From: Roseburia hominis A2-183
GTDB taxonomy: Bacteria > Bacillota > Clostridia > Lachnospirales > Lachnospiraceae
Direction of reading: 5' to 3'
Length of the DNA stretch: 64,000 nucleotides
Assembly: GCF_000225345.1 (NCBI RefSeq)
Contig: NC_015977.1
Span: 1,843,501-1,907,500, forward strand
Part shown: positions 48,461 through 63,345 of the stretch, one piece after another
Position numbering within the stretch: position 1 is the first letter of the stretch
Layout of the letters: each line of letters begins with the position of its first letter
Program-made: the position numbers and the translations under genes
Notes under the pieces: generated by a model
Told to the model about the DNA's origin: nothing
The model's input: only the letters and a program-made list of their open reading frames with translations
The model's database searches: none

Positions 48461-48937
48461 CTATTTATTATAGCGCTTATTGTTTCTTCTGAAAAGTGCG
48501 AATCTTACCATGCGCCGCAGCCGCGCGGCAGGCACCATAATAGCTCTGCGCGCCGGTCTGAGCCATAGCCACACCACACTTAACATCCGGTATCCCGGAT
48601 TCCCCACATCCATATAGCGTCCGTCTCTTACCATACCGGTCATTTTCCCCTTGACCTGCTCCCGCCGCACGGGTCCCTCGATGGCTGTCTGGTGATCCCC
48701 CAGCAGATACAGTCCGTCCTGCCCGATCTTATAAATCCGGTGCAGTACCAGCATTCCGTTTTCCCTGCGATAAAGCACAACGTCCCCGCGCCGCAGCGCG
48801 CTCCCATCCTCTATGCCGGCAAGTACCACCTCGTCCCTCCGCGGATCTATAAACGGATACATGCTGTACCCCTGTGGATGAATCTGTATGCATACTCCCG
48901 CCTTAAGGAGCGGCTCAATCTCATAGATCTGCTCCAT
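48461..48937 (-). CDS. S24/S26-family peptidase-like protein
   Basis: The 158-residue protein has the signal-peptidase/LexA-type core. The serine lies in P-Q-G-Y-S-M-Y-P-F near residue 25, then G-D-V-V-L-Y-R, and histidine in L-V-L-H-R-I where bacterial type I enzymes carry the catalytic lysine. The Ser-His layout recalls SipW/archaeal-type signal peptidases. Unlike those, no clear N-terminal membrane anchor is seen; hydrophobic residues cluster near 110-130. The ATG at 48937 is chosen for GGGAGGGG four bases upstream. Divergent from a PqqD/HPr-kinase gene, it may process the leader peptides encoded at 52-53 kb. Confidence 0.75.
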   Translation of the reverse strand: MEQIYEIEPLLKAGVCIQIHPQGYSMYPFIDPRRDEVVLAGIEDGSALRRGDVVLYRRENGMLVLHRIYKIGQDGLYLLGDHQTAIEGPVRREQVKGKMTGMVRDGRYMDVGNPGYRMLSVVWLWLRPARRAIMVPAARLRRMVRFALFRRNNKRYNK

Positions 48938-48963
48938 TCTTCCCCTCCCGTTTCTCTTCATTC

Positions 48964-48996
48964 ATTGTAGCATTTTTTACCTCTGAATGCTATAAT
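48964..48996. promoter_or_regulatory. Divergent promoter region with inverted repeat
   Basis: TATAAT (48991-48996, plus strand) and TACAAT (48969-48964, minus strand) are the -10 boxes for the PqqD/HPr-kinase gene and the peptidase gene. They lie inside an inverted repeat TTGTAGCATT (48965-48974) / AATGCTATAA (48986-48995), nine of ten bases complementary. Neither side has a good -35 box. Shared regulation of the two genes is likely but inferred. Confidence 0.45.
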
Positions 48997-49036
48997 AAGC
49001 ATACTTATGAACCGCTAATAAAGGAGTGACACCGGT

Positions 49037-50179
49037 ATGAAACTCAACGATCGATACATCAAGGCAACGCTCGCAGGTATTCCCTATCTGCTTCCTTACG
49101 GACAGCTCATCGCAGCTCCCGCTCCTGCCACCCGGCTCAACGATTCCGGGGCACTTCTGTGGGACGGCATCTTAGAGGGCGATAGCCGCGAGGAACTGCT
49201 CGCCCTTCTCGCAGACCGTTACCATGCCACAGAGCGCGAGCGCGCGGCACTTGCGGAAGATGTCGACCAGTATCTTCATTCCCTGTGCCGTATGGGAATT
49301 CTTCTTGCGGATACACCCGAAAGCCGGGGCGATGATACGCCTCCTCTTTTCTACCGCATCGGTCCTCTGGTCTTTTCCTACCGCGGTCCCTCTCTCCTAT
49401 ACGACCGCTTCTTCTCCGCTTTTTCCTGCGAAGAGGAAGACTTCGACCAGGAGGTTCTTATTCTGACCGGGAAACCGGCTTCCATTCCTTACGGCGCCGT
49501 GCTTATTCACACGGAGGAACTTACCATCTGCGACAGCGGAAGTTCGTATTGTTTCTTTTTTGCAGCGCCGTGGGGCATCCGCGAAATGCATGTAAAAAAA
49601 GACGGCTCGCGCGCCGTCCTTTACCGCATGCCGGATCCGGATGATATGCACATCGAAGACCTGTTTCACGCACTTCGCTTCGCTTTTCTCATCCTGGCTC
49701 AGCAGAAGGAGCTTTATGTGCTGCACTCCGCCTCTTTTTTGTACCGCGGGCGCGCCTTTCTCGTTTCCGGCAGTTCCGGAACCGGGAAGTCCACACACTC
49801 TGCCCTGTGGCATGATCTGTACCAGACGCCCCTCTTAAACGGCGACTTAAACCTGCTCGGAATCAGAGACAACATACCCTACGCCTATGGACTTCCATGG
49901 TGCGGCACATCGGGCATCTGCACCCCGAAAGACTATCCGCTCGGCGGCATCATCTTCTTAAAGCAGGCTGCCATAGATCAGGTGCAGTCCCTGCAGCCGG
50001 ACGAAAAAGTGCTCCACATCCTGCAGCGGATGATCTCCCCCGCGTGGACAAAGGAGCTTCTCCTTCGCAATCTGCATTTTTCCGAAGCCCTCGCTCCGCT
50101 CATCTTTTCCTGCCGGCTGTACTGCACGAAAGAGCCTTCCGCTGCCAGGACCTTAAAAGCCGCCATCGATGCTCTTTAG
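49037..50179 (+). CDS. PqqD domain fused to HPr kinase-like domain
   Basis: The first 95 residues look like a PqqD/RiPP-recognition domain, with L-N-D-S-G-A-L-L-W-D and V-D-Q-Y-L-H-S-L-C-R-M-G-I-L. The C-terminal half has the HPr kinase/phosphorylase-type P-loop S-G-S-S-G-T-G-K-S-T-H-S (near 254) followed by N-G-D-L-N-L and G-L-P-W-C-G-T-S-G. In lasso-peptide clusters such as paeninodin, HPr-kinase homologues phosphorylate the precursor peptide. This fusion would bring a leader-binding domain and a kinase together. The gene is convergent with the ABC exporter (stops overlap by four bases) and shares a promoter region with the peptidase. The substrate is inferred to be one of the nearby leader peptides. 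Confidence 0.82.
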   Translation: MKLNDRYIKATLAGIPYLLPYGQLIAAPAPATRLNDSGALLWDGILEGDSREELLALLADRYHATERERAALAEDVDQYLHSLCRMGILLADTPESRGDDTPPLFYRIGPLVFSYRGPSLLYDRFFSAFSCEEEDFDQEVLILTGKPASIPYGAVLIHTEELTICDSGSSYCFFFAAPWGIREMHVKKDGSRAVLYRMPDPDDMHIEDLFHALRFAFLILAQQKELYVLHSASFLYRGRAFLVSGSSGTGKSTHSALWHDLYQTPLLNGDLNLLGIRDNIPYAYGLPWCGTSGICTPKDYPLGGIIFLKQAAIDQVQSLQPDEKVLHILQRMISPAWTKELLLRNLHFSEALAPLIFSCRLYCTKEPSAARTLKAAIDAL

Positions 50180-51942
50180 AATTCCCGCATCATCTGACGG
50201 ATCTCTTCCTCCTGCATCTGCACACACTTCTGCTCCCGGATGCGGTACACCTTCTGACAGATGGACAATACCGTCGGGCGGTGTGTTGTGACGATACAGG
50301 TGCGTGGCTCCGTGGTGCTCATGATATTCCGCAGCACTCTGCGCTCCGTTACGACGTCTAACGCCGAGGTCGCCTCATCCAGCAGAAGAATCGGTGATCG
50401 GCGAAGCAGTGCTCTGGCAATCGACAGACGCTGCGCCTGTCCCTCCGAGAATCCGCCTCCACGCTCTCCAACCATGGAATAGATCCCATCGGGAAGTTTT
50501 TCCACAAACTCCCAGGCACATGCCGCCTTTAACACTTCACAGATTTCCTCATCCGAGGCTTCCGGTCTTACATTTCTCATATTTTCCGCGATTGTTCCCG
50601 AAAACATGGTATTCCCCTGCGGCACATAGGAAAACAGCCGTCTTGCAGAGGGATCTACGGCGATCTTCTCCCCGTCCGTCTCCCCGATCAGGATCCGCTC
50701 TCCCTCCTGCGGATGCAAAAGCCCCAGCATCAGGCGGAGCATTGTCGTCTTCCCCTCCCCGGAAGGTCCCACGAGAGCGACAATCTCCTTGGGACGCGCC
50801 AAAAAGTCTGCACCGCAAAACACCTGCTTTCCATTATGATAGGCGTAACTCACCCCGGAAAAGACGATTCCGATGCCATCCGACCGATTCTGTCCGGCGA
50901 ACTGCTCCACCTGATCGGCATCCGAAAAATCTTCCTTGGGCATATCGAGAATGTCCATCAGTCTTCCCGCCGATGTGGTTAAAGACACTGCCGTGGGCAC
51001 CAGAGACACCAGCTGGTTTAAGGTTCCCGTGAGAGAGCCCGACAGCGATAAAAACATGGTCATGGTACCGTAGGAGATCGCACCGCTCCACACACGGTAG
51101 ATTCCAAACCCGTAGCAGCTGTAAGACACCGCAAGTCCCACGATCGACAGCAGAATTGAGGTCGCCATAGACATTTTCTGAAACTCCAGCTTCATGGTGA
51201 GATACTCCCGCTGCAGACCGCGCAGACGCTCCGCGTACAGCCGGATCAGATCAAATGCCTTGATCGTCTGGATATTGGAAAACGCCTCCTGATTAAAGCC
51301 CGACATCTTTGCGCTCATCGCCGCACTCCGCTCATTATTCCCCTTCATGCGGCGAAGCAGCGTCTTCGACATCAGCATGCTGACCGGCATTCCGATCAGC
51401 GCTAATAACGCGAACATCGGATCATGGTAGAACACGACCGCAAAGGTGCTGACAAAACGCACCGTATAGATCACGAGATTCGGAATCCAGTTTAGGACAC
51501 CGCTTGAAATATTGGAGGCATCCGAACTCCAGCGCGTTAAAAGATCTCCCGTGTGGTAGTTCTGGATTGACTCCAGATCCGTCAACAGCATTTTTTCAAA
51601 AATATCCGCCTTGATGGCATTGTCCACGCTGATGCTGATCTTGTTCGCAAAGTAATTGGAGATCTGGGAAATCAGGACATTTCCAACCGAGAACCCGATA
51701 TAGAGGCAGAAGGTGCGCGCCAGAAGCCCCGCCTGCTGTCCTGTGATAATATCCACCATATCGCGGGAAATGAGACTTGAAATGAGCGATACCAGCGTTC
51801 CCGCAAGTCCCAGAAGCGTATAAAATATCATCTGCTTCCAATAAAGTCTCGCATATTCGTAGATCCATAGCGTCTGTCTCCACATATCACGGAGCATTCC
51901 CTCTTTGATCCGCTCTCTGTAATGTCTGAACTTCTCAAGCAT
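50176..51942 (-). CDS. ABC exporter (fused permease and ATPase)
   Basis: The 588-residue protein has six membrane helices (about 30-310) and an ATPase with G-P-S-G-E-G-K-T-T (near 385), F-S-E-G-Q-A-Q-R (signature with E replacing a G) and L-L-L-D-E-A-T-S-A-L-D. There is no N-terminal C39 peptidase domain, so leader removal would need a separate protease. The start has only AGGA eight bases upstream. It lies just downstream of three leader-peptide genes and is the candidate exporter for them. Confidence 0.9.
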   Translation of the reverse strand: MLEKFRHYRERIKEGMLRDMWRQTLWIYEYARLYWKQMIFYTLLGLAGTLVSLISSLISRDMVDIITGQQAGLLARTFCLYIGFSVGNVLISQISNYFANKISISVDNAIKADIFEKMLLTDLESIQNYHTGDLLTRWSSDASNISSGVLNWIPNLVIYTVRFVSTFAVVFYHDPMFALLALIGMPVSMLMSKTLLRRMKGNNERSAAMSAKMSGFNQEAFSNIQTIKAFDLIRLYAERLRGLQREYLTMKLEFQKMSMATSILLSIVGLAVSYSCYGFGIYRVWSGAISYGTMTMFLSLSGSLTGTLNQLVSLVPTAVSLTTSAGRLMDILDMPKEDFSDADQVEQFAGQNRSDGIGIVFSGVSYAYHNGKQVFCGADFLARPKEIVALVGPSGEGKTTMLRLMLGLLHPQEGERILIGETDGEKIAVDPSARRLFSYVPQGNTMFSGTIAENMRNVRPEASDEEICEVLKAACAWEFVEKLPDGIYSMVGERGGGFSEGQAQRLSIARALLRRSPILLLDEATSALDVVTERRVLRNIMSTTEPRTCIVTTHRPTVLSICQKVYRIREQKCVQMQEEEIRQMMREF

Positions 51943-51983
51943 TGTAATTTTCCTATTCTTTCATAAAAATGAATTCTGTCTGC

Positions 51984-52096
51984 AGGATTCTCCGCCTGCG
52001 GCGGGTCGCTCTTGCGACATCTTTCGTCTCCGCCGCAGTGCGATCCCTGGAGAGTTTTTTATGTAATAGGAAAGAAGTTTCCTATTACATAAAAAA
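51984..52096. repeat. Structured non-coding element, copy 2
   Basis: This stretch shares order and partial sequence with 28599-28763. Both have an ATTCTCCGC start, then GTCGC or TTCGC, then CCGC, GCGATCC or GCGCATCC, and GAG before GTTTTTTAT. It ends in a perfect 19-bp hairpin TTTTTTATGTAATAGGAAA (52055-52073) / TTTCCTATTACATAAAAAA (52078-52096) with a four-base loop. The open frame across it has no ribosome binding site and I treat it as non-coding. Confidence 0.7.
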
Positions 52097-52136
52097 GAGC
52101 TTCACAGGAGGAACCGATTCCTCCCGCGAAGCTTTT
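52092..52136 (-). terminator. Terminator of the leader-peptide genes
   Basis: On the minus strand AGCTTC and GGAGGAA with their complements form an interrupted stem (about 52098-52134) followed by CTTTTTT. It lies 36 bases beyond the last peptide gene and shares its T-run with the hairpin of the repeat element. Confidence 0.82.
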
Positions 52137-52171
52137 GACTTCTCACATCCGCCCGGTCGCCTGCCGGCTTC

Positions 52172-52546
52172 TTAATCTGTAATGTTCACGCTTGTCACCG
52201 CAAGCCCCGCATCTGCCTGCACAACCAGATCCCCGAGTCCGATATTGTCGGTCGGATTCTGATGATAGTTATAATTGATCACAAGTGTATTCGTTCCGCT
52301 GCCGGATACCAGTGATCCGCCGGAACTGGTGTAGGTTACCGGAAGACTGAACGAAATGGTCAGTGTCTGCGCCTCTTTCGTATGATCGGCACTGTGCTGA
52401 CCGTTCACCTGGATACGGTACTCCCCGCTTCCGGACTGCGGTGTCTGATGAATGTACGCACTCGCCGTATAGCATCCGCTTGCAAGATAGACCCCTTCCG
52501 CAAGCTCTTCTGTTCTAAGAATCACAGGACTCTCATAATTCGTCAT
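52172..52546 (-). CDS. Leader-bearing peptide 1 with beta-rich C-terminal part
   Basis: The 124-residue product starts M-T-N-Y-E-S-P-V-I-L and has the shared leader ending T-E-E-L-A-E-G-V-Y-L-A-S-G (about 12-24). The remainder contains a single cysteine directly after the leader. It is rich in Gly, Ser, Thr, Asn and alternating hydrophobic residues (for example L-T-I-S-F-S-L-P-V-T-Y), suggesting a small beta-sandwich. It thus differs completely from the cores of the two sister genes. GGGGG lies seven bases upstream of the ATG. It is 25 bases after gene 2 and cotranscribed with it. I know no named family. Confidence 0.78.
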   Translation of the reverse strand: MTNYESPVILRTEELAEGVYLASGCYTASAYIHQTPQSGSGEYRIQVNGQHSADHTKEAQTLTISFSLPVTYTSSGGSLVSGSGTNTLVINYNYHQNPTDNIGLGDLVVQADAGLAVTSVNITD

Positions 52547-52571
52547 AGCATTTCCCCCGTTTTAAAGATTG

Positions 52572-52907
52572 TTACATGTTCCAGTCTGTGACCGCATCAT
52601 CCGGACCATAGCCCTTCTTCTCCCATGACGGCTTACGGTTACCATTATCCACATCGTAACTTCCCGCATACCCGGAATCCACATAATGGCTCAACAGACC
52701 GCAGCCGGAAGCAGTATTCGCCGGGCATCCAAGACATCCGAACTGCTGCTTGTATCCGCGTGTGGTGCCATTCCAGTCGGAATAATCCGGCGCCTGCCAC
52801 ACACCGTTCATGTAGACACTGTCACACTTGATGCCTCCGCTTGCAAGATAAACCCCCTCTGCAAGCTCCTCCGTCCGTATCATCACCGGACGCTCATAAT
52901 TCTTCAT
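52572..52907 (-). CDS. Leader-bearing peptide 2 with four-cysteine core
   Basis: From the ATG at 52907 (AAGGTGG eight bases upstream) the 111-residue product begins M-K-N-Y-E-R-P-V-M-I and has the same T-E-E-L-A-E-G-V-Y-L-A-S-G-G leader. The core holds C-D-S-V-Y-M-N-G-V-W-Q-A-P-D-Y-S, then G-C-L-G-C-P-A-N and G-C-G-L, spacing shared with peptide 3. The tail is rich in Gly, Asp, Tyr and Trp. It has its own perfect promoter and a hairpin just ahead of the ribosome binding site. No known family is recognised. Confidence 0.8.
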   Translation of the reverse strand: MKNYERPVMIRTEELAEGVYLASGGIKCDSVYMNGVWQAPDYSDWNGTTRGYKQQFGCLGCPANTASGCGLLSHYVDSGYAGSYDVDNGNRKPSWEKKGYGPDDAVTDWNM

Positions 52908-52935
52908 AAAACCAGCCACCTTCTAACACTTTTTT

Positions 52936-52951
52936 GCGGCACTTCTGCCGC
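52936..52951 (-). promoter_or_regulatory. Hairpin in the 5' leader of peptide 2
   Basis: GCGGCA (52936-52941) and TGCCGC (52946-52951) form a six-bp stem with a four-base loop between the promoter and the ribosome binding site. On the coding strand it is followed by A rather than T, so it is not a terminator; it may stabilise the messenger. Confidence 0.5.
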
Positions 52952-52971
52952 TGACTCATACACATATTTTA

Positions 52972-53000
52972 AGTATAAAATTCTGTGTTTACGCTGTCAA
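52972..53000 (-). promoter_or_regulatory. Promoter of peptides 2 and 1
   Basis: TTGACA (53000-52995) and TATACT (52977-52972) are 17 bases apart on the minus strand, in the 132-base gap after peptide 3. It is one of the strongest promoters in the window and should give high expression. Confidence 0.82.
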
Positions 53001-53039
53001 GCATGAATTTTCTGCCAGAACGGCATGCCGGCATTTTCT

Positions 53040-53360
53040 CTACCAGACCATGGCATCCGGTGTCAGTCCCTGCTGTTCCCAGACAGGCTGATAGACATTT
53101 CCGGCGACTTTTGCATCACCCTTTTGCAGCTTGCAGCCGTCACCGTCATCCGCCGCACAGCCCTCGCAGCCTTTTCTGTCATAGGCACGCATCTGCACAT
53201 TGCTGTTGCTGTAATCCGGCTTTTTCCAGGCTCCCTTCATGTACCGGCTGTCACATCCACCTGCCGTCGGATCTTCCCCGGTCTGTCCGCCGCTTGCCAG
53301 ATAGACGCCCTCCGAACATTCCGTCATCAAAATCACTTCCGGTTTTTCATAGTTCTGCAT
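53040..53360 (-). CDS. Leader-bearing peptide 3 with four-cysteine core
   Basis: The ATG at 53360 follows GGAAGGTGG by six bases. The 106-residue product begins M-Q-N-Y-E-K-P-E-V-I-L with leader E-C-S-E-G-V-Y-L-A-S-G-G. Its core has C-D-S-R-Y-M-K-G-A-W-K-K-P-D-Y-S, then G-C-E-G-C-A-A-D and G-C-K-L, matching peptide 2 position by position at the cysteines. An extra cysteine lies inside the leader. It has a separate upstream region with direct repeats. Function unknown; a secreted, possibly disulfide-bonded or modified peptide is inferred. Confidence 0.8.
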   Translation of the reverse strand: MQNYEKPEVILMTECSEGVYLASGGQTGEDPTAGGCDSRYMKGAWKKPDYSNSNVQMRAYDRKGCEGCAADDGDGCKLQKGDAKVAGNVYQPVWEQQGLTPDAMVW

Positions 53361-53410
53361 AAGAAACCACCTTCCACAATCCCACCACATACAGGATTCT
53401 TTTTCTTTTC

Positions 53411-53464
53411 ATTATAGTGGTTTCTGCGGCGTGATTCCTCGTACAAACTTGTGATTTCTTGTAC
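53411..53464 (-). promoter_or_regulatory. Activator-type promoter of peptide 3
   Basis: A perfect TATAAT (53416-53411) lacks a recognisable -35. In its place two direct repeats lie upstream, GTGATTCCTCGTAC (53431-53444) and GTGATTTCTTGTAC (53451-53464), identical at 12 of 14 positions with a 20-base period. A weaker third copy may follow. Direct repeats about two helical turns apart beside a -35-less promoter resemble LytTR-type (AgrA-like) operators; no such regulator gene is in the window. Confidence 0.55.
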
Positions 53465-53506: not shown

Positions 53507-54928
53507 CTATCGCACTGCCACCTCACCGAGGCAGTATCCGTTTTCTGTGGCATCCGCTTCGTTTGCAAGTAAAATCTGTTCCCCGCTGTCTGCATCGCTA
53601 AGATTGATATATACCCGGTAAGTCCCGCTCTCCCAGCCGCGGATCGGAATGGTTCCGGTGAGCGCCAGTTCCCTGTCGTCCTCATTTCCGCCGGAAAGCT
53701 TAAGTAGCTCCTCTTCCCATTCATCCGTATAGCAGACTGCCCCCGTCTCATCTGTAACGCTCACACAGACTTTTGTCTGCCGGTAAAACGGTGCAAACCC
53801 GCTGTTTTTTAAAGCAGCATTTACCTCCACCGTATCCGCCCAGAACGAATGGCTCAAAGCGGCACCGGCAATCCACAGGCGGTACCCCAGATGCCGTTCC
53901 ACATAAGACCAGCCGTCCATTCCGTCGTAGCAGTCATCTGTATTCACGACCGTCCCTGCCCACTTATCCAGGACATTCCTGTCATAGTCCTCGTTTAAGT
54001 AACTCACATGCATGGTTTTCAGATCCGCGATCGCATTTTCAAGATCATTGTACGGGTTATCGACAATCACTTCCCCGCCGGACGGCACACTGCTGCACAA
54101 TACATCCTGAAATGCCAGTTCTTCCTCCCGCGTCCACGCCGAAAAATCCCCGGCGTCCTGTCTGGTGTTATCGCTGTAAGTTCCGTAATCGCTCACGCTT
54201 CCCAGCATGCCGTCATTAAAAAGTCCAAGCCTTTTGGCCAGCGGGTTCTCTGTCCAGCCGTCCGGTGCCGCCTCCCCCGTGATTTTTCTCCACTGCGCCG
54301 GCGTCCGCACGGAGAGAAACGTGGACGCATCGCTCACATCGGCAAGGCGTGCCGCCAGTTCTCTCATAGAATCCGGATCCGTGTATTTTGTTCCGTTCAT
54401 CTCCCCCCAGTTGCCGATAAAGAGTCCCTGAAGCGTATAGATACAGCTGTGATACTCCCGGAGCACATCTCCCACCTGCTCCATATGCTGCAATATAATG
54501 TCAAGATTCTCCGGTTCATACTGCTCGTTCTCCCCGTTCCAGTCATAGAGGAAACGGACGATCCATTTCTTGTCGCTGTCCGCCATGGCTGCAAACAACT
54601 GCCGGACATTTGACAGCCCCTCCTCCGATATGGCACCCGTCCGGTATTCCCGCAGATTGATCTGCATCATTCCAAGCCGCGTCGCGTCATCTTCCCTCGT
54701 CCTGTCTCTTAAATCTGTGGCATAGTCGACCGGTTCATCCGTAATGCGGTAGCCGTAAATGTAATAAAATCCGCGGTCCGGATTGGAAAGCCTCCTGGAT
54801 GACTCTGCAAACGCCGCCGGCGTACATGTCACCTTCCAGTGAAACAGACTGCCCATTTGAGCTGCTGCTATAAGACACAAAACAACCGCTGCGCCAAGCG
54901 CCAAAATCCTTTTCCAACGTCCACTCAT
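53507..54928 (-). CDS. DUF4874/DUF4832 protein, membrane-anchored (copy 1)
   Basis: An N-terminal hydrophobic segment (about 8-26) acts as signal or anchor. It is followed by the DUF4874 opening N-P-D-R-G-F-Y-Y-I-Y and, in the second half, the DUF4832 pattern with H-L-G-Y-R-L-W-I and F-A-P-F-Y. The N-terminal domain is thought to be a TIM-barrel-like glycosidase fold; G-N-W-G-E-M-N in the middle resembles a catalytic acidic segment. The gene overlaps the large membrane-protein gene by four bases (ATGA). The family often accompanies surface polysaccharide genes; its reaction is unproven. Confidence 0.82.
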   Translation of the reverse strand: MSGRWKRILALGAAVVLCLIAAAQMGSLFHWKVTCTPAAFAESSRRLSNPDRGFYYIYGYRITDEPVDYATDLRDRTREDDATRLGMMQINLREYRTGAISEEGLSNVRQLFAAMADSDKKWIVRFLYDWNGENEQYEPENLDIILQHMEQVGDVLREYHSCIYTLQGLFIGNWGEMNGTKYTDPDSMRELAARLADVSDASTFLSVRTPAQWRKITGEAAPDGWTENPLAKRLGLFNDGMLGSVSDYGTYSDNTRQDAGDFSAWTREEELAFQDVLCSSVPSGGEVIVDNPYNDLENAIADLKTMHVSYLNEDYDRNVLDKWAGTVVNTDDCYDGMDGWSYVERHLGYRLWIAGAALSHSFWADTVEVNAALKNSGFAPFYRQTKVCVSVTDETGAVCYTDEWEEELLKLSGGNEDDRELALTGTIPIRGWESGTYRVYINLSDADSGEQILLANEADATENGYCLGEVAVR

Positions 54929-57414
54929 GATTCCTCCAGCTGATATAACCGATAGGTGTTCTGCCGTATCATATAGCAGCAGAAATTCTCATCTTCATAA
55001 TATACCTTCATCTCCTGCGGATAGGATGCTTCAAACTTCCTGCACCATTCGTACGCTTTGGATTCCAGTATCGTGCGGCTGTCCAGATTGGAATAGGTCT
55101 GCGAGAGTTTTGAGAATGTCATCATCTCCCTCTCTGCCTGCTCCCGCGAGATCTCCGAGGCATTGATGCTGTTCCCCTCGCTGAAATAGGTCGTATAGTA
55201 AGAAGTGTATTTTTCCTCTGCCAGCCAGTCCGGTCCGGTAAAGAAGTGGTTCTGCGCGTATTGGATCGGCCGCTTCTCCACATACACAAAAATGTATTCC
55301 GTCGGCAGGGTATAGCCACTTCCGTTCACCCGGTTCAGGAAAGTCAAAAGCTCCTCATGCCGCCCCTGTTCGATCACCTGGTAAAGTTCGTCCGTGGTAG
55401 ACACAATCGTATAGCTGTTCTCCGGGAATTTATCCGTGATGTCCTGTGTCACCATCACCGCCGCATTGTATCTGGTCAGTTCATAGTAGAGGTATCCGTG
55501 AAAAATGCCACGCTGTCTCGTCCCCACATAGATCACCGCCACTCCCGCGGCAAGCGCAAGCGGCAGCACACGTCTGCCGGGCGTAAGGGCGATTGCCCCG
55601 GCAGCCAGATCCACCGGAATGACCACGACCGCCAGAATGAAAAGCTGTTCCGTAGAGCATAGCCTGGAGCCTGCAATAAGCTCCGGCAGCCCGAGGAACG
55701 GCGCCGCATAGACAATCATAAGCAATACCGATATTCCGACCAGCACCGGATATCCGTCAAACAGCTGCCGGATCTTTTTGCTGTCACTTCCCTTTTTTAG
55801 CAGGCCGGTGATAATCCCCGCCGCCATCCGGTACACCGCCCAGAGGATCAGTGCCAGACCGCTAAAAAGCACAATCCATTCCGCCCGGTTCTCACGGTAC
55901 AGCTGCACATACCCGTATTTCCAGACCAGTTGTGCCTTGCCGGCGAACGATGCCGCCATCCGTTCTGCCATCGCAAGCATATGATTACCGGCAGATTGTT
56001 TCGGAGCGCTATTTTGTCCCGCATCCGCACTCCCGCCATCCGGTGTCTGCCCGTTCCCCCCGTGGGATTGTTCCGTCGGCTGCACCGCTGCTTCTGTCGT
56101 CTCCCCGCTCTCTGTCATCCTCTCACCGGACCATGTCTGCTCCTTCGATGTCTGCTCACTCGATGTCTGCGCCTGTTCTAAGATCTGTTCCGCCTGGCTG
56201 GTACGCCCCTCCGCGGTATCCGTACCGTTTATGACATTGACCGCCCATCCGATCGATCCCTGGAACGGTACACCCTTCGCATACGCAATTCCCATCGGCA
56301 GCACCGCTATCAGCACACCGAGGCAGACCGCCTTTACGAGAGATACAAACCTTCTCTTTTGAAAAAGAGCGGGAAGCCTGCACGCGGCAATCACCACGCA
56401 GAGGAAAAACGCCATCATCGTGACATAAAAATGAATGGCAAGGGAAGCCGCCAGTGACAGCAGAAACAGCAGCAGATTCTCATCCGTCAAAAACTTTCTG
56501 ATCCGCTCTCTCCGGCTGCCGGATCTGTCGCTAAAGTCCGTCTTAAGGCAGCGAAGCAGAAACAGTGCGCACAGGAATTGTGTATACAGTCCGAACTCCT
56601 GCGGCAGCGTCCACTGCAGACGGGACATGGAAAAGATCTCGTCAATGCACAAAAGATCCACGGTCAGGAACAACGCCAGTGCAAGCACCGCGGTTCCATC
56701 CCATGCAAATAATTCCTTCAGCAGCAGATACGCGCTGACCAGAAAAACCGCGACGTGGATTCCCGCCAGAAACAGCTGGCTGCTATAAATCTTTACCCCG
56801 AACAGCACGCGCATGGCGTAGATAAAGCAGTGCATGGCTTCCGGGTAGATTCCCTCATAAAAAGGCGTACCGTTTAACAGCCCGTAGATCCACGAGTGGT
56901 GGCGGTACATATCGCCAAACCCGTAGGAGTAATCATGGAATGCCCCGTAGGAAAAATACACCATGCCAAAGCACACAACCACCCCCAGCATCAGATAGAC
57001 GCAGCGCCGTCCCCGTATGCTCCGCCTGAATTGTGCATGTGCACGCCCAATCCCGTTTTTTACCCTGTTGCGCAGGCGAAGCAGCAAAAGCCGGATGCCG
57101 TAGGTTCCCAGAAACAGGCGGGAGATCTTTTTGATCTGCTCCCGCCGCACGGGGTGCCATCTCAGCAAGCCAAGCAGCAATGTGCCGTAAAACAGCACGG
57201 CAATCAGCCATCCGTACAGTATATGAAACACGCCCAGACTTAGTACCACCGTATTGAGCAGCACAACCGGAACCGTCACACAGAAAGCAAACCGCACCGT
57301 ACGGCTCCTGCCTCTTAAATAATCCCGGAATACCACAGACGGCCACACAAACAGAATCATCACATAGGCAAAAAATACCCTGACATATTCCAGTGCCCAG
57401 TACCATGTATCCAT
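54925..57414 (-). CDS. Large polytopic membrane protein, possibly GT-C-like
   Basis: The 829-residue protein has about a dozen hydrophobic segments. A loop near residue 165-185 has F-G-D-M-Y-R-H-H-S-W-I-Y-G, a position where GT-C glycosyltransferases carry acidic motifs. Between two membrane segments (about 405-490) lies a hydrophilic loop rich in Gln, Ser, Thr, Glu and Gly. The last 170 residues form a soluble domain. GGAGGAG lies six bases before the start. The position between a nucleotidyltransferase and a DUF4832 gene suggests a role in surface glycan assembly; the GT-C label is tentative. Confidence 0.6.
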   Translation of the reverse strand: MDTWYWALEYVRVFFAYVMILFVWPSVVFRDYLRGRSRTVRFAFCVTVPVVLLNTVVLSLGVFHILYGWLIAVLFYGTLLLGLLRWHPVRREQIKKISRLFLGTYGIRLLLLRLRNRVKNGIGRAHAQFRRSIRGRRCVYLMLGVVVCFGMVYFSYGAFHDYSYGFGDMYRHHSWIYGLLNGTPFYEGIYPEAMHCFIYAMRVLFGVKIYSSQLFLAGIHVAVFLVSAYLLLKELFAWDGTAVLALALFLTVDLLCIDEIFSMSRLQWTLPQEFGLYTQFLCALFLLRCLKTDFSDRSGSRRERIRKFLTDENLLLFLLSLAASLAIHFYVTMMAFFLCVVIAACRLPALFQKRRFVSLVKAVCLGVLIAVLPMGIAYAKGVPFQGSIGWAVNVINGTDTAEGRTSQAEQILEQAQTSSEQTSKEQTWSGERMTESGETTEAAVQPTEQSHGGNGQTPDGGSADAGQNSAPKQSAGNHMLAMAERMAASFAGKAQLVWKYGYVQLYRENRAEWIVLFSGLALILWAVYRMAAGIITGLLKKGSDSKKIRQLFDGYPVLVGISVLLMIVYAAPFLGLPELIAGSRLCSTEQLFILAVVVIPVDLAAGAIALTPGRRVLPLALAAGVAVIYVGTRQRGIFHGYLYYELTRYNAAVMVTQDITDKFPENSYTIVSTTDELYQVIEQGRHEELLTFLNRVNGSGYTLPTEYIFVYVEKRPIQYAQNHFFTGPDWLAEEKYTSYYTTYFSEGNSINASEISREQAEREMMTFSKLSQTYSNLDSRTILESKAYEWCRKFEASYPQEMKVYYEDENFCCYMIRQNTYRLYQLEES

Positions 57415-57450: not shown

Positions 57451-58656
57451 CTAGCGGAACAGCTTCATCTCCTCCACAAGCTTTCCGCGCGCTCTCGCCT
57501 TCTTTAACACCGCGTACCCCGATACCCGGCGCATCTTAACGTTGCGGTATGCAAAACCGCAGAACATCATCACCCACAACACCGGATGCAGAATGCGGTA
57601 GCGCCCTGCCCCTGGATAGGTGAGCAACATCTGATGATGAAATTCCCGGCAATAATCCCGCCAGCCGGTTCCCCGCAGCGCCACCATACGGTCGGCACTT
57701 GACTTGCCGAACTCCTCCGCTTCCAGAATCTCTGTCAGGAATGCTTCCAGATTTGCAGCTTCCGCCTCCCAGTCAAATCTGCAAAGCAGCAGGGGCACTT
57801 TTTCCCCGGAAAGTCCCAGATATTTTACACAGACCGCCGTCACCAGCCGCGCAAATCCCATCACGCGGCATTCCTCTGCCATGGAGAAAAAACGCTCCTC
57901 TACCCCGCTGCCGTATCCCTTTTCCCAGAATACGACCCAGTCGCAGAGCAGCTTTAACCCGAATCCGGCACGCAGGAAATGCTGCAGCATATGAAGCAGC
58001 AGGTAAAACGCATGATATGCCGGCTGCAGCACCGGAAACTCTACGCCCATCACCGCCGTCCTCTCACAGTGCGCCAGAAATTCCGCCTGATGTGCGGCGA
58101 GCCACTCGTTGACGCTTTTGGAGTCGAACGGCTCTGCCAGCGCAACGTGAATTTCTATTCCGATCTGCTCTGTGCCAACGCAGACGATATGATGGTGCGC
58201 GTGCTGCTCTGGGGCTTTCCGGAATCCATGCTCATGCAGCACCTCATACGCCTTTTCTCCCGCTTTCTGATCCGCAACGAGCAGATCAATATCCCCGGAC
58301 TTGCGAAGTTCCGGCACCGGATAGAGTCCCGCCGTGCCGCTCCCCTTTAAAAGAACCGTCTCGATTCCATGTTCCCGCAAAAGTCCTGTCACATATTTCC
58401 CGAGGAACAGCAAGCGGTAGCTCTGCCGCACCGTCTCTGCGCTTCTCTTCTCAAGGCGCTTCCGGTTCTCATCCTCCTCGGGCAGCTTGGGTGCCAGCAC
58501 GTCGTACAGCAGCGGCAGCACGCGATGCCGGTCTGCCAGTTCAAGAATGGCTCCGTATTTTTCAGCCGGCGGGAGCATTTCCGCCGGTCTGCCGTGCAGC
58601 GCCGCATCCAGCAGCCTGCACAAATCCCATTGTTCTTCTTCCATCTGCTGTCTCAT
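57451..58656 (-). CDS. PF14907-type nucleotidyltransferase family protein
   Basis: The open frame extends far upstream, but the ATG at 58656 overlaps the flippase stop by one base and follows GGAGG by six, giving 401 residues. The sequence has the family layout: L-A-D-R-H-R-V-L-P-L-L-Y, then V-L-L-K-G-S-G-T-A-G-L-Y-P, and the nucleotidyltransferase pair G-D-I-D-L-L-V near residue 150. Members are frequent next to PqqD, HPr-kinase and S24/S26 peptidase genes in peptide clusters. It could modify either a peptide or a glycan precursor; its substrate is unknown. Confidence 0.8.
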   Translation of the reverse strand: MRQQMEEEQWDLCRLLDAALHGRPAEMLPPAEKYGAILELADRHRVLPLLYDVLAPKLPEEDENRKRLEKRSAETVRQSYRLLFLGKYVTGLLREHGIETVLLKGSGTAGLYPVPELRKSGDIDLLVADQKAGEKAYEVLHEHGFRKAPEQHAHHHIVCVGTEQIGIEIHVALAEPFDSKSVNEWLAAHQAEFLAHCERTAVMGVEFPVLQPAYHAFYLLLHMLQHFLRAGFGLKLLCDWVVFWEKGYGSGVEERFFSMAEECRVMGFARLVTAVCVKYLGLSGEKVPLLLCRFDWEAEAANLEAFLTEILEAEEFGKSSADRMVALRGTGWRDYCREFHHQMLLTYPGAGRYRILHPVLWVMMFCGFAYRNVKMRRVSGYAVLKKARARGKLVEEMKLFR

Positions 58657-60200
58657 CACATTCCTCCCCGATGCAGCCTGCCCCACTCGATGCGCCGCAG
58701 GCGCTCCAACACCCGTTTCCATTCTTTCGTCCTGCCGTATGCCATAAAAAACAACAGATTGGGCAGCACCACGCAGAGCGGCAGCCGGATGAGAAGAACG
58801 GTAAGCGGACTTCCCTCTGCCAGTCCGCAGACCAGGTCTGTCACAATCCATACCGCTCCCACACAGACCGCGTATAAAAGGTAGCGCAAATAAAACCGGT
58901 GCACCGGCAGGTGCAATCTTCTTCGGTACAGGACAAACGGCTCCACCCACACCGACGTGAGAATCGTTGACAAAAACGTTCCGATAAATACGCCGAGCGT
59001 CTGATACTGTCTTACCAGAAGAATCGACAGCACCAGATTGAGCGCCGCCTCCGCCAGCGCCTTGTAGCGATCGAACCAGAACAATCCCATGGAATCCCGA
59101 AAGGTCAGCACCGCTTTCCTGGTTCCGTTGATAAAAAAGTTGAGGCATAAGATCATGACAACGGAGCGTTCAAACAGATACTGTCTGCCAAAAGCCAGCT
59201 CCACAAACGGATTGAGCAATTCGTACAGGCAGATCGCCGCAAACCCGTAAAGCCACTGCCCGATAAAAAAGGCCGTCTCAAAAATCTCGCGGATTTTGCC
59301 CTGGTCCTCCGTTGCTCCCAGATTGCCCACACTCGCTGTAATTCCCGCAAAGACCTGGTCCAACACCTGGCGGACGGAACCGATCAGAAGATAATAATTG
59401 GAATATATTCCGACACTGACCACGCCGACAAACGCGGAGATCAGTAAATTATCGGTATTATTTACAACGACCGTCCCAAGCTTGTGCATCATCATGGCGC
59501 GGATATTCCGAAACAGTCCCGTCCGCTCCTCTGCTGGAAGACGTTCCTTCTCTTTTTCCTTTAAATACGGGAAAAGCTTTTCCGCCTTTCGCGAGATACA
59601 CACATTTGACAGAACCGTGCACATCAGATACATCAACAAAAACAGAATAAAGTTTCCCGTAGTAAGCAGCACAACAATCTGCAGCAGATCCTGCAGCACC
59701 AAAAAGCCGGTCTGATAGATGAGCACCACATAATTCATCTGATGCGCCTCAATCAGCGTCCTCTTGTACACCAGCAGATACGACAGCACAGAGTTGGCGA
59801 GATAGAGAAGGTAAATAAACGTCAGATGCTCCACCTCGGGTCTGTTTTTCATGAGCACGTCCATAAACGGAATCAGCGCCAGTCCCAGCACGCCCACACA
59901 CACCGCGGTTCCACGGTAAAATGTCTGGTAAAGCTTCATCAGCTGCTGCTGCTTCTTGATGTTGCCCTCCGCGATCGGCCGGTACAAGGCGTAAGTGATT
60001 GCCGTGCCTGCGCCAAGCTCGGTCAACGAAAGCACGTTTAAAATATCGGTGAACAGACCGTTGATTCCGACATAGTTTTCACTCAGCGTATGCGTAAAAA
60101 TCACACGCGTCACAAATCCCATCAGAATCGCCGTCATTCTGGAGATGACCGCCACGGTTGTATTCATTGCCGAATATTCTGTTCTGCTCTTTGTTTCCAT
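58656..60200 (-). CDS. Polysaccharide flippase (MVF/PST type)
   Basis: The 514-residue protein has about twelve to fourteen hydrophobic helices and the opening N-T-T-V-A-V-I-S-R-M-T-A-I-L-M-G-F, typical of MATE-like exporters of lipid-linked glycans. N-Y-V-G-I-N-G-L-F-T-D-I-L-N-V-L-S-L-T-E-L-G is a hallmark of the Firmicutes lipopolysaccharide-flippase group. It is part of the minus-strand glycan operon, 17 bases after the Stealth gene. Confidence 0.88.
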   Translation of the reverse strand: METKSRTEYSAMNTTVAVISRMTAILMGFVTRVIFTHTLSENYVGINGLFTDILNVLSLTELGAGTAITYALYRPIAEGNIKKQQQLMKLYQTFYRGTAVCVGVLGLALIPFMDVLMKNRPEVEHLTFIYLLYLANSVLSYLLVYKRTLIEAHQMNYVVLIYQTGFLVLQDLLQIVVLLTTGNFILFLLMYLMCTVLSNVCISRKAEKLFPYLKEKEKERLPAEERTGLFRNIRAMMMHKLGTVVVNNTDNLLISAFVGVVSVGIYSNYYLLIGSVRQVLDQVFAGITASVGNLGATEDQGKIREIFETAFFIGQWLYGFAAICLYELLNPFVELAFGRQYLFERSVVMILCLNFFINGTRKAVLTFRDSMGLFWFDRYKALAEAALNLVLSILLVRQYQTLGVFIGTFLSTILTSVWVEPFVLYRRRLHLPVHRFYLRYLLYAVCVGAVWIVTDLVCGLAEGSPLTVLLIRLPLCVVLPNLLFFMAYGRTKEWKRVLERLRRIEWGRLHRGGM

Positions 60201-60217: not shown

Positions 60218-61300
60218 TTAGTGCTTTTCCCCTGCTCCGTCCGTTTCAAAGGAACTCTTTTTCGGAAAAGCTTTTAAAAATGCTTCGTTTAATTCCCTCT
60301 TGACCCTGTCATACGCCTCCACCTTCTGGGAATCATTGATGCAGACAGCCGGGCTTTTTTTCTTCTCAATCACATGAAGCAGCGATGTATTCTGATCCGA
60401 GAGATCATAATACCTGCAGAACCGGCAGGCATTGACAGGATAAAAATTACCCTCCAGCTTCTGCCATTCTCTGAGCAGATACTGACTCACATCCTCCCTG
60501 CTGCGGAATCTGTGGCTGCACACCTCCGACAAAAGCGCTCCCTCCCGCTGCCAGAGCGCCTCGTAGGTGTTCTTTAGAAGCGGCGACGGACCGTGCACCG
60601 TATAAAATCCGGTAAACCGCGGGAACATGCGCTCGAGCAGGTTATACCCGAAATATAAGAGCGGATACCCCGGATGCCAGTAGGCTCCCGGCTGCTGCTT
60701 CATGTTTTCCCGCTTGTCAAAATACCTCGCAAGCACCATCGCATTGTTCAGATAGATATACGGCATGACGGCATCCTCCCGGTTTGCCACGACCGGCTGT
60801 AAGGCAAGCATGTCAAGCGGCTTTCCGTCCCGGAAAAACTGTCCGGGGCTTACCTGCCGCAACAGAAACATATCGTCGTTAAAATAGACAAACTGTTCCG
60901 ACAATCCGGGGATGCGGTGAAAATTGAGCTCGATTGTGTGGGAATTAAACGTCGGCAGAAATTCTCCCGGAATATAATCCTCGTGGCGCACAATCTCAAG
61001 CTTCGGATGATTCCCATTCAGCCACTTCGGCACATGTCCCCATGTGACAAAATAGATCTTGTGCACCCACGGGGCATTCTGTTCCACACTGCGGAACCAG
61101 AACCGCAGGCAGTCCCAATCACGGTAGCGCACATCCCTGGTATCGCAGGCAACGCCGGACTTCTCTCTCTCTCCGGTCTCTTCTACCGCTGTTTTCTCCC
61201 CCATCTTCCCATATCGATCCCGCTCTCTCTGCCATGCCGGATCCCCGCCGTCAACCCAGGCAATCACAAAATCAATCTGTGTTTCCTTTTTCTCTTCCAT
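60218..61300 (-). CDS. Stealth-family capsular polysaccharide phosphotransferase
   Basis: Stealth proteins transfer sugar-1-phosphate to build phosphodiester-linked glycans. CR1 is seen as I-D-F-V-I-A-W-V-D-G-G-D (8-19). CR2 covers R-F-W-F-R-S-V-E-Q-N-A-P-W and V-Y-F-N-D-D-M-F-L (the N-D-D segment). Later conserved regions include H-P-G-Y-P and a C-terminal I-N-D-S. The 360-residue length is normal. The ATG at 61300 follows GGGAGG by five bases and overlaps the end of the upstream DUF4832 gene by 29 bases. Confidence 0.88.
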   Translation of the reverse strand: MEEKKETQIDFVIAWVDGGDPAWQRERDRYGKMGEKTAVEETGEREKSGVACDTRDVRYRDWDCLRFWFRSVEQNAPWVHKIYFVTWGHVPKWLNGNHPKLEIVRHEDYIPGEFLPTFNSHTIELNFHRIPGLSEQFVYFNDDMFLLRQVSPGQFFRDGKPLDMLALQPVVANREDAVMPYIYLNNAMVLARYFDKRENMKQQPGAYWHPGYPLLYFGYNLLERMFPRFTGFYTVHGPSPLLKNTYEALWQREGALLSEVCSHRFRSREDVSQYLLREWQKLEGNFYPVNACRFCRYYDLSDQNTSLLHVIEKKKSPAVCINDSQKVEAYDRVKRELNEAFLKAFPKKSSFETDGAGEKH

Positions 61301-62573
61301 GCAATCCTCCCTGCACCATCCATCTGCCGATCAAGAGCCGGCTTCCCGCGCCTTCATTCGCAAACGGCAGCGGTTTTCCGTCTTTCTTCCGCACCATGGA
61401 AAGGTAGAGTTTCTCCTCTTTTCCTTCCCCGTCGTCTTCTCCCGCCGCAATTTCAACCTTTGCCACGTCCGTCTGACCGCCCTTTAATCCGCAGATCTCA
61501 TAAGGAACCTTCTGCACCTTCTGCTCTTTGCCTTCATCACACTCCCGGATCAGAAGCAGATCCGTTTTCTGGCATACGGCGGAAAATCCTTCATTTTTCA
61601 GTGTCACCCAAAGGCTTCCCTTTTTCCACTCTGCACAAAGCACGCAGATCCGGTAACCGAGGCGGCTGCCGATCTCCTCATACAGCGATTTTCCGGACGG
61701 GAGACGGCATGCCTTCCACTCTGCCATCCGCGCCGGGTCATAGATGCTGTTTAAATAGGTCACCTGCATCTTTTGAAGTTCCTCTAAGACTGCCTCCGCG
61801 GACAGCTTTATTCCCGCCAGCGCCTCCCCTCCGCACAGAATATTTTCATCCTGTCCGCTCAGATAAGCCTGCTCATCTGCCGCACACCACGGTTCTTCCC
61901 AGTCTGCCGCCTCCCTCGGCACATCCCCGAACGTCCCCATATGGTCGGCTCCGGCAAACATGGCATCATCGTATAGTCCCAGTCCGCGCACCGGCCTATT
62001 TCCCGCCAGCATGCGCAGATGCACCGGCTTTCGCACCGAGAGTGTCAGCGCATGGTGCGTCGCCTCCTGCCAGGTCTGCGCCAGCAGGCAGATCTGATCC
62101 GGGCGCAGAAACCGGGAGGTATGCATCTCTCCCCAGCTTCCCACAAACACGCCCTGCACGGTCAGAATGGCATCCGCATACCGTTCCGCAAAACTACCGA
62201 GCGCCTGCATGTGTCTCTGCACCACAAAAATGCGCTGCGGCTCGCGCTCCATCCCCTTTCCCTCCGTATCGTAACAGACGCGCAGGATCATCTCTTTTTT
62301 CCGCTCTTGAAAGGCACGAAAAATCTGCTCCGCAAAGTCCAGTGCAAGAGTGTCCAGTTCACGCGAGGCGTAATCGCGGATGTCCAGCCGGACCAGAGCA
62401 AGTGTCTCCCCGGGATAATCCGGCAGCCAGTCTAAGGATACTTTCTCCGGTCTCCCCAGCCGGAACGTGTAGATGTGATACCACCCACGCCCCGGAGCAA
62501 TATAGGGCTTCTGCTGTCTTTTTAAATTTTCTGCGTAAAAAGAACGCTTACTCCTTTTTGTCCATGAAAACAT
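61272..62573 (-). CDS. DUF4874/DUF4832-like protein without anchor (copy 2)
   Basis: The ATG at 62573 (M-F-S-W-T-K-R-S) follows AGGAG by six bases and overlaps the glycosyltransferase end by 26 bases; the longer open frame upstream is the shadow of that gene. The 433-residue protein parallels copy 1: P-G-R-G-W-Y-H-I-Y-T-F near the start, V-F-V-G-S-W-G-E-M-H in the middle and R-L-G-Y-R-I-C-V later. It lacks the N-terminal hydrophobic segment of copy 1, so it may be cytoplasmic. Similarity to copy 1 is clear but distant. Confidence 0.75.
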   Translation of the reverse strand: MFSWTKRSKRSFYAENLKRQQKPYIAPGRGWYHIYTFRLGRPEKVSLDWLPDYPGETLALVRLDIRDYASRELDTLALDFAEQIFRAFQERKKEMILRVCYDTEGKGMEREPQRIFVVQRHMQALGSFAERYADAILTVQGVFVGSWGEMHTSRFLRPDQICLLAQTWQEATHHALTLSVRKPVHLRMLAGNRPVRGLGLYDDAMFAGADHMGTFGDVPREAADWEEPWCAADEQAYLSGQDENILCGGEALAGIKLSAEAVLEELQKMQVTYLNSIYDPARMAEWKACRLPSGKSLYEEIGSRLGYRICVLCAEWKKGSLWVTLKNEGFSAVCQKTDLLLIRECDEGKEQKVQKVPYEICGLKGGQTDVAKVEIAAGEDDGEGKEEKLYLSMVRKKDGKPLPFANEGAGSRLLIGRWMVQGGLHGREKGNTD

Positions 62574-63345
62574 CCCGCTCTCCTGCCCCCGCATCAATTC
62601 CAAGCACCTTGATCCGAAATACCACGCCGATGATGGAGAAGACCATGCGGAACATATAGACCACCGGTTTGAGTCCGGAGTGCATGCTGGTGCCACAGCT
62701 TCTCGCATGCATGACAGCAGGGATCTCATCTATGCGGAATCCGAGCAGCTGCATCTGAATGATCATATTGGCATCCGGATACTTGTCGTCAAAGTGCTTA
62801 TACTTCGAGTAATATAAAAATGCCCTGCGGTTAAGTCCCTGCAGACCGGTCGTCGGATCGGCAATCTTTCGTCCGGTACTGATCTTTATCATCCAGCGGA
62901 AGAATCCGTATGCCAGTTTCTTCGTAGCGGAGACCGAATACTCTGCACTTCCCTCCATAAAACGCGAACAAAGCACGATATCCGGGCAGCGTCCGTCCGC
63001 ATCCTGCTGTTTTAGTCTCTGATAGATCACCGGTATGTTGCACACATCATGCTGTCCGTCCGCATCCATCTGGATCACATAGGAATATTTGCGGCGGATC
63101 GCGTATTTATATCCAAGCTGCAGGGCGCTCCCGTACCCCAGATTAAAGACATGGGATACCAGCGTATGTCCGTGTGCCTTTACGACCCAGTTCGTAGAGT
63201 CCGAGGACGCGTCATTCATGACCAGAATATCCGCAATCTCCGCGATCTCCGGGCGTTCCAGCTCCTCCAGCACCCGCTCTATATTTTTCTCCTCATTGTA
63301 TGCCGGAATGATAATCAGCAGTTCTTTTTGTTTCTTCTCTACCAT
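62548..63345 (-). CDS. Family 2 glycosyltransferase (dolichyl-phosphate mannosyltransferase-like)
   Basis: The 265-residue protein begins L-L-I-I-I-P-A-Y-N-E-E-K-N-I and has M-N-D-A-S-S-D-S-T, the donor-binding Q-M-D-A-D-G-Q-H-D near residue 95, and the acceptor-side D-P-T-T-G-L-Q-G. This GT-A pattern matches DPM1/GT2 enzymes that charge a lipid carrier with a sugar. A hydrophobic segment near the C-terminus may attach it to the membrane. It lies between the partial glycosyltransferase and DUF4832 copy 2. Confidence 0.92.
   Translation of the reverse strand: MVEKKQKELLIIIPAYNEEKNIERVLEELERPEIAEIADILVMNDASSDSTNWVVKAHGHTLVSHVFNLGYGSALQLGYKYAIRRKYSYVIQMDADGQHDVCNIPVIYQRLKQQDADGRCPDIVLCSRFMEGSAEYSVSATKKLAYGFFRWMIKISTGRKIADPTTGLQGLNRRAFLYYSKYKHFDDKYPDANMIIQMQLLGFRIDEIPAVMHARSCGTSMHSGLKPVVYMFRMVFSIIGVVFRIKVLGIDAGAGERDVFMDKKE

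Follow-up and report, generated by a model that had tools for sequence, protein, structure and literature searches.

The window analysed here is a stretch of 64,000 nucleotides of the genome of the gut bacterium Roseburia hominis A2-183 (G000:C1:1843501-1907500, in a genome, G000, that is one contig of 3,592,125 bases), and up to position 53464 it carries a module of genes for an S26-type peptidase, a PqqD-HPrK kinase fusion, an ATP-binding cassette (ABC) exporter and three small leader-bearing proteins. We consider it probable that this module is an LPP-like system (LPP, linear polyphosphorylated peptide) by which small secreted proteins are tagged and exported, and that it works within a Pel-type polysaccharide cluster. 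The system is best read as a variant of the LPP systems of Bacillota (Popov et al. 2026, PMC13381572), in which the recognition element (RRE) known from ribosomally synthesized and post-translationally modified peptides (RiPPs) is fused to the kinase, the leader ends differently, the cargo is larger and conserved, and the context is a pel cluster. We read it so because the enzymes and the YxxP precursors are the same, the PqqD half of the fusion aligns with known RREs, and precursors with the LPP-type FETxxS motif are found at two loci, L170 and L171. The original prediction from this DNA had called the combination undescribed, which is no longer right, since its enzyme set is the one published as LPP in May 2026.

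The peptidase, the fusion and an exporter without a peptidase of its own were placed correctly by the original prediction, as domain and motif evidence confirms. The peptidase scores under the curated library thresholds (36.7 against 51.85 bits for TIGR02228, 13.1 against 23.3 bits for Pfam S24), and the residues of its SM, HR and GD motifs (Ser, His, GD) are intact in 15 of 15 aligned sequences including that of the window. In the fusion a PqqD domain above its cut-off (34.8 bits) is joined to a P-loop domain, and all 13 aligned fusions keep H230, GxGK of the P-loop and NGD unchanged. As a single query the PqqD half found no relative in the Protein Data Bank (PDB), and as part of the fusion profile it found weak ones, namely the lasso RREs TbiB1 (E 0.0029) and PbaB1 (0.021) as well as LppB (9x8z, 0.022), with the positions aligned to N33 and D70 of LppB kept in 12/13 and 11/13 fusions. 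No C39 peptidase domain was found on the exporter in a Pfam scan, and MsbA models are among its best NCBIfam matches, every one of them under cut-off. A nucleotidyltransferase gene that lies 4 kb past position 53464 is also part of the enzyme set, and we infer it to be of the LppN/pseudomycoidin type.

The three small genes, whose likely starts are at 52546, 52907 and 53360, have N termini in which YExP is followed by EGVYLASG. The shared leader claimed for them is therefore real, whereas the three different cores are not, because precursors 2 and 3 are 48% identical across the whole protein and core 3 without its leader retrieves gene-2-type proteins at 32-39% identity, which leaves two kinds of core. 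Leader conservation was counted in the best 120 of 685 homologues of precursor 1 together with the best 120 of 261 homologues of precursor 2. The segment E-x-[VI]-[YFD] plus four residues is present in 237 of these 240 sequences (two of the other three have odd leaders and one has no leader); its sixth place is variable, its seventh is Ser and its eighth Gly in 237/237, and the spacing from the Tyr of YxxP to this Ser is 19 in 229/230. As the sequences counted are related, these counts are not independent. The same Ser stands in the leaders of the remaining core families of the loci, where core lengths run from 55 to 127 residues. Judged by sequence, two of the three cores, 1 and 2, belong to families well conserved across those genera that have them, and core 1 is modelled as a beta-sandwich of the cellulose/chitin-binding type, possibly CBM2-like.

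The S26 peptidase, PqqD-HPrK fusion, MsbA-like exporter and leader-bearing genes recur as a set in Lachnospiraceae. Our sample consisted of 200 genomes of the family (defined by named relatives), one per genus, of which 43 matched the fusion at E<=1e-10. Thirteen of these are named strong (E below 1e-50, a line set post hoc from the result table), two encode full-length PqqD-kinase proteins with degenerate P-loops and the Asp of NGD lost (G049, 7e-32; G023, 2e-26), and the remaining 28 match mostly to the kinase half. The stretches of G049 and G023 contain no S26 gene, exporter or leader and their genomes no PelG. A profile built from 52 leaders and run on the same 200 genomes gave 13 genomes below E 1e-5, namely 12 of the 13 strong-fusion genomes and one of the 187 others (G146); partial matches in G047 (5.7e-4; model positions 1-15) and G101 (0.036; positions 1-11) are left out of the count. 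With 12/13 against 1/187 genomes the co-occurrence of leader and fusion is not due to chance (Fisher p 3e-17; all Fisher values treat genera as independent), and it bears out the expectation of the original prediction that the two would be found together, and not leaders that consistently lack these neighbours. Eighteen of the 27 leader matches lie within 10 kb of a fusion. The bare DNA motif was much noisier than the profile: it matched 21/200 genomes, 12 of them unconfirmed by the profile, and controls matched 13. The stretches fetched from the strong-fusion genomes contain the exporter in 13/13 cases, S26 in 11/13 and the nucleotidyltransferase in 9/13, and none of the 13 genomes as a whole is without PF14907. 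The fusion of G025, whose stretch holds no S26 gene, is 1 kb from a contig end, and in G135 the exporter, S26 and precursors are on the contig of the fusion, nearly 40 kb away.

Together with a Gram-positive pelDEADAFG-like operon, of a kind that makes a biofilm-type polysaccharide and that starts just past the window, the module forms one 24-kb cluster. In this operon (L081) PelG (PF16933, 517 bits), PelF (DUF3492, 264 bits) and a PelD-like protein with an epimerase domain (38.6 bits) stand in the Gram-positive pel order, the place of PelADA matches DUF2194 only and that of PelE has no Pfam match. PelG is over cut-off in 35 of the 200 genomes (G177, under the cut-off, is excluded), that is in 12/13 strong-fusion genomes as opposed to 23/187 others and in all 13 leader genomes (Fisher p 1.6e-9 for fusion and PelG, 1.7e-11 for leader and PelG), and in 12/15 if G049 and G023 are counted with the strong fusions. 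Fusion and PelG are 9 to 20 kb apart on one contig in 11/13 genomes, and in G025 both lie near contig starts. The module is an optional add-on, present in 12 of the 35 PelG genomes. Nineteen of the 23 PelG genomes that lack a strong fusion supplied 20 PelG stretches, and in these, examined with single-sequence queries only, S26, kinase and exporter occur together in G035 alone.

By homology and conservation we propose that the PqqD/RRE half of the fusion would bind the YxxPxV motif of each leader and that the tethered kinase half would phosphorylate the invariant Ser of EGVYxASG. The SipW-like S26 peptidase would cut near, probably just upstream of, this Ser, so that the modified Ser would be kept at the mature N terminus; if the Ser is at +3 as in LPP, the predicted cut falls between Tyr20 and residue 21. 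The MsbA-like transporter would export the mature protein, the nucleotidyltransferase may add a sugar or a nucleotide onto the phosphate, and the cargo, at least that of the beta-sandwich type, may bind polysaccharide and act in the matrix made by the neighbouring pel genes. According to the main text on LPPs, Ser3 of the core is polyphosphorylated in a kinase-dependent manner, LppS, which is SipW-like, cleaves with the assistance of the RRE, and the cut is made upstream of the Ser and poorly so without phosphorylation (PMC13381572). The original prediction had assigned recognition to PqqD, modification to the kinase, cleavage to S26 and export to the transporter; these roles agree with those of LPP, a relative studied by experiment, whereas the nucleotidyltransferase and the tie to pel had been missed.

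A number of observations weigh against this proposal. The libraries name the HPrK type weakly (ScmC 17.9 bits, HprK_rel_A 14.7 bits, both far under cut-off), and the RRE match to LppB, at E 0.022, is weak. The LPP leader continues with HQxIxFETxxS (YxxPxVLxHQxIxFETxxS; main text of PMC13381572) whereas here YxxPxV is followed by AEGVYxASG, and because this second half differs the positions of cleavage and Ser are matched by spacing only. The fold of core 1 has a moderate Foldseek match (best E 1.9e-3, none under 1e-3), unrelated domains are close behind in VIA (CD109 8.3, integrin 8.1), and the core-1 profile against sequences retrieved no carbohydrate-binding domain (best E 0.3, a lectin). 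The model of core 2 is of low confidence (pLDDT 66), core 3 shares just 32-39% with its relatives, and the exporter, with orthologues 54-68% identical, is conserved to the same degree as the cores. Nine of the 27 leader matches are separated from a fusion by over 10 kb or belong to a fusion-free genome: two in G135 (~37 kb off), three in G146 and one each elsewhere in G000, G022, G029 and G034. As 23 of the 187 genomes without a strong fusion carry PelG, Pel does not need the module, and in G096, which has a fusion, the genome contains no PelG and the fetched stretch neither S26 nor a YxxP leader. Literature searches found no experiments on this variant.

The leader might serve as a secretion signal and the kinase half as an ATP-driven chaperone or switch, with the peptidase cutting after ASG and no lasting modification being made. 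Signal peptidases follow a small-residue rule, with which ASG agrees, and by eye there is no Ser common to all core families; deletion of lppN in LPP also changed nothing detectable (PMC13381572, main text). However, the residue at -3 varies (N, D, E, T) while Ser and Gly are constant in the 237 leaders of the same best 120 of 685 and best 120 of 261 homologues, the kinase motif residues are invariant, and LPP cleavage, upstream of its Ser, is poor without phosphorylation, and we regard export alone as an unlikely account.

The precursors could also be antimicrobial, bacteriocin-like peptides with a dedicated exporter, in keeping with small genes that carry leaders next to an ABC transporter and with a patchy presence in the genus (8/40 genomes including the window's own). 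This is made quite improbable by the conservation of cores 1 and 2 across genera, the transporter without a C39 domain, the carbohydrate-binding-type sandwich modelled for core 1 and the location in PelG clusters, and none of the Pfam or NCBIfam bacteriocin models matches the three precursors. PqqD, HPrK, nucleotidyltransferase and ABC genes make up paeninodin-type clusters in the texts of PMC8498205 and PMC7533575, and the set could be the accessory part of an incomplete or split lasso pathway whose cyclase acts from elsewhere. The lasso B2 domain (PF13471, Transglut_core3) is, however, over cut-off in only one of 14 genomes searched, G096, on another contig than the fusion, and not in the window genome, and with cores of 55-127 residues we find such a pathway very hard to credit. 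That these genes are chance neighbours within a polysaccharide region, as the strand of the fusion, opposite to that of its neighbours, and the patchiness in the genus could imply, is refuted by the recurrence of the set across many genera (Fisher p 3e-17 for the leader, 1.6e-9 for PelG) and retains a negligible probability.

Features of the module and of its surroundings (window positions unless noted otherwise).
Feature	Coordinates	Strand	Basis
SipW/archaeal signal-peptidase-type serine peptidase (S26, LppS-like), proposed leader peptidase	48461..48961	-	TIGR02228 E 3.5e-9 (below cut-off); motif residues
PqqD/RRE + HPrK-like kinase fusion, 380 aa, RRE at residues 33-89	49037..50179	+	PF05402; kinase motif residues
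MsbA-like ABC exporter (LppD-like), no C39 peptidase	50176..51942	-	PF00664 + PF00005; MsbA-type NCBIfam models below cut-off
Terminator-like hairpin, 16 pairs, T-rich tail, directly after precursor 1	52098..52133	-	consensus match only
Precursor 1: leader/tag MTNYESPVILRTEELAEGVYLASG (52475-52546) + 100-aa predicted beta-sandwich core	52172..52546	-	core model, cellulose/chitin-binding-domain-like
Precursor 2: leader/tag (52836-52907) + 87-aa conserved core, four Cys	52572..52907	-	homologue searches
Sigma-70-like promoter (11 of 12) ahead of precursors 2 and 1	52972..53000	-	consensus match only
Precursor 3: leader/tag (53289-53360) + core related to precursor 2	53040..53360	-	sequence comparison
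DUF4874/DUF4832 protein	53507..54928	-	Pfam; DUF4832 described as an accessory in Gram-positive pel loci (PMC7112168, text)
829-aa membrane-type protein, no Pfam family, recurrent in PelG loci	54925..57414	-	Pfam scan; homologues
PF14907 nucleotidyltransferase, 401 aa, start trimmed to Met at 58656	57451..58656	-	PF14907
Polysaccharide flippase	58656..60200	-	Pfam-type annotation
Stealth-type protein	60218..61300	-	domain match
Second DUF4874/DUF4832 protein	61272..62729	-	domain match
GT2-like glycosyltransferase	62548..63345	-	own sequence
PelG, PelF, PelADA-like, PelE-like and PelD-like genes	G000:C1:1908441-1916314, beyond the window		after GT2-like gene

The genes of the wider cluster (DUF4874/DUF4832, flippase, Stealth, glycosyltransferases) share the strand of the precursors; the Stealth-type protein is presumably a sugar-phosphate transferase, and homologues of the 829-aa protein are found repeatedly in PelG stretches, whether or not these hold the module. 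The hairpin and the promoter-like site, consensus matches only, would fit a separately expressed precursor unit. A viral origin of core 1 was considered and rejected, as none of 23 pattern stretches in viral contigs is a relative, and neither core profile gave a useful match to PDB sequences. A paeninodin-like kinase target at a C-terminal Ser was rejected as well, since by eye the cores end differently (ITD, WNM, QGxxD and others) and have no Ser in common; Ser is the last residue in two orphan precursors (L083:7117-7551 and L082:6646-6915). The latter, in the G000:C1:496646 region, is a fourth precursor of the window genome, 89 aa long, with the leader and a small Cys-rich core, and cores like it are found directly beside an S26 gene (L043:9390-9635) and at a contig end (L087:8339-8587).

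Several genomes depart from the usual arrangement. The unfused S26-kinase-exporter set of G035 (L097:10980-19584) adjoins PelG and has two precursors with WxxP leaders ending in ENIAASG, while G047 and G087 have an unfused kinase with S26 and an ABC gene, in G087 ~24 kb from its PelG. G146, a genome 68% complete, has three leader-bearing precursors and PelG and no fusion; one precursor is weakly ubiquitin-like (below cut-off), a second resembles it by eye, and a stand-alone PqqD gene (L159:3901-4170) directly adjoins the pelD-like gene. In G096, missed by the leader profile, a leader-like EGIYAGSG without YxxP can be seen by eye. The fusions at L051:9245-10441 and L053:9244-10350 have degenerate P-loops (the lysine is lost in L051; GTEKN in L053) and no peptidase, exporter or leader nearby, and it is possible that they are regulators or decaying copies. 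Within the genus the fusion occurs in 8/40 genomes including the window's own and in 3/16 of good quality, with identities of 38-56% in the seven other genomes, and this patchiness suggests gain and loss or transfer. At class level the fusion profile hits 107/391 genomes at E<=1e-20, and among the matches listed all save G000 and G022 start at model position 102 or beyond, in the kinase part. In the phylum sample 7/329 genomes match at 1e-22, and a contig scan with one protein query gave three loci in Lachnospiraceae metagenome-assembled genomes at 36% identity.

The role of LPPs was left open by their discoverers, who note that the loci often lie in capsule loci and float biofilm formation as a tempting, untested idea (PMC13381572, main text); the variant described here offers a conserved cargo of sugar-binding type by prediction, a pel neighbourhood that recurs in many genera of the family and a fused recognition-kinase. 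A further idea, which we regard as tentative and rather doubtful, starts from phosphorylation of the Ser by the kinase: the nucleotidyltransferase would attach a sugar, as its pseudomycoidin counterpart does, and the carbohydrate-binding proteins, once exported, would be joined covalently to the Pel-type polysaccharide or crosslink it. If true, such phospho-glyco-linked matrix proteins would supply a biological role for the LPP family and be a new way to build a bacterial matrix. Our data also suggest that ordinary proteins may be modified and secreted by means of RiPP-type leaders, which would blur the distinction between peptide natural products and protein secretion.

Literature searches did not find the motif EGVYAASG in any paper, nor anything joining Roseburia, exopolysaccharide, RiPP and Pel, nor a paper joining four of PqqD, radical SAM, HPr kinase, nucleotidyltransferase and signal peptidase, and they found a single paper that mentions linear polyphosphorylated peptides together with lasso. 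With the lasso peptides paeninodin and pseudomycoidin, for which the text of PMC8498205 describes the same kinase and nucleotidyltransferase types as phosphorylating and phosphoglycosylating peptides, our module shares PqqD (B1), HPrK kinase, nucleotidyltransferase, ABC exporter and the leader motif [Y/W]xxPx[L/V], but it has an S26 enzyme in place of the B2 peptidase and long cores in place of short threaded ones. Split modules of clostridia, known to us from 16 loci of the class sample (L110-L125), share PqqD (a separate homologue near in 15), S26 (13), an HPrK-like kinase, ABC (14) and short YxxP-leader precursors, with a nucleotidyltransferase in four; they differ in having separate genes, precursors mostly of 40-70 aa and radical SAM genes in 2/16 (L113, L118), and some of them, by eye, adjoin SLH-like surface proteins. 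Gram-positive pel loci have the order pelDEADAFG with a DUF4832 accessory, and those of Roseburia sit inside larger capsule- or teichoic-acid-like clusters (Whitfield 2020, PMC7112168). The window's cluster shares with them PelG, PelF, PelD with its N-terminal epimerase domain and the DUF4832 accessory, and differs by the module, as the text of that paper contains neither PqqD nor 'peptide export'.

The closest likeness is to LPP, whose genes lppA/K/B/S/D/N cover an RRE, an HprK kinase, a SipW-like peptidase, an MsbA-like transporter and a nucleoside triphosphate (NTP) transferase, and whose precursors of 35-200 aa carry YxxP leaders (PMC13381572, main text). Like these loci, the window has an S26 peptidase beside an RRE, intact HprK-like kinase motifs, an MsbA-like exporter and a nucleotidyltransferase at a polysaccharide locus, and both have one to three precursors with a constant YxxPxV N terminus and a variable C terminus; no macrolactam cyclase gene was seen in the module, a statement made without a search with Asn-synthase-type models. 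The FETxxS precursors at L170:5993-6118 and L171:13993-14121 are short and adjoin a second kinase-like gene; each of the two loci holds another YxxP precursor, and L171 also a lasso-like WxxP precursor. The main text of PMC13381572, supplements aside, contains none of the terms Clostridi-, Lachnospir-, Roseburia, Pel or carbohydrate-binding. We do not file the system as a plain LPP because it lacks a discrete RRE and the full leader motif. Whereas the RRE of LPP is discrete, here it is fused to the kinase, and the system is set in Lachnospiraceae and in a Pel-type cluster, with some cargo that consists of conserved proteins, one of them with a predicted sugar-binding-type fold.

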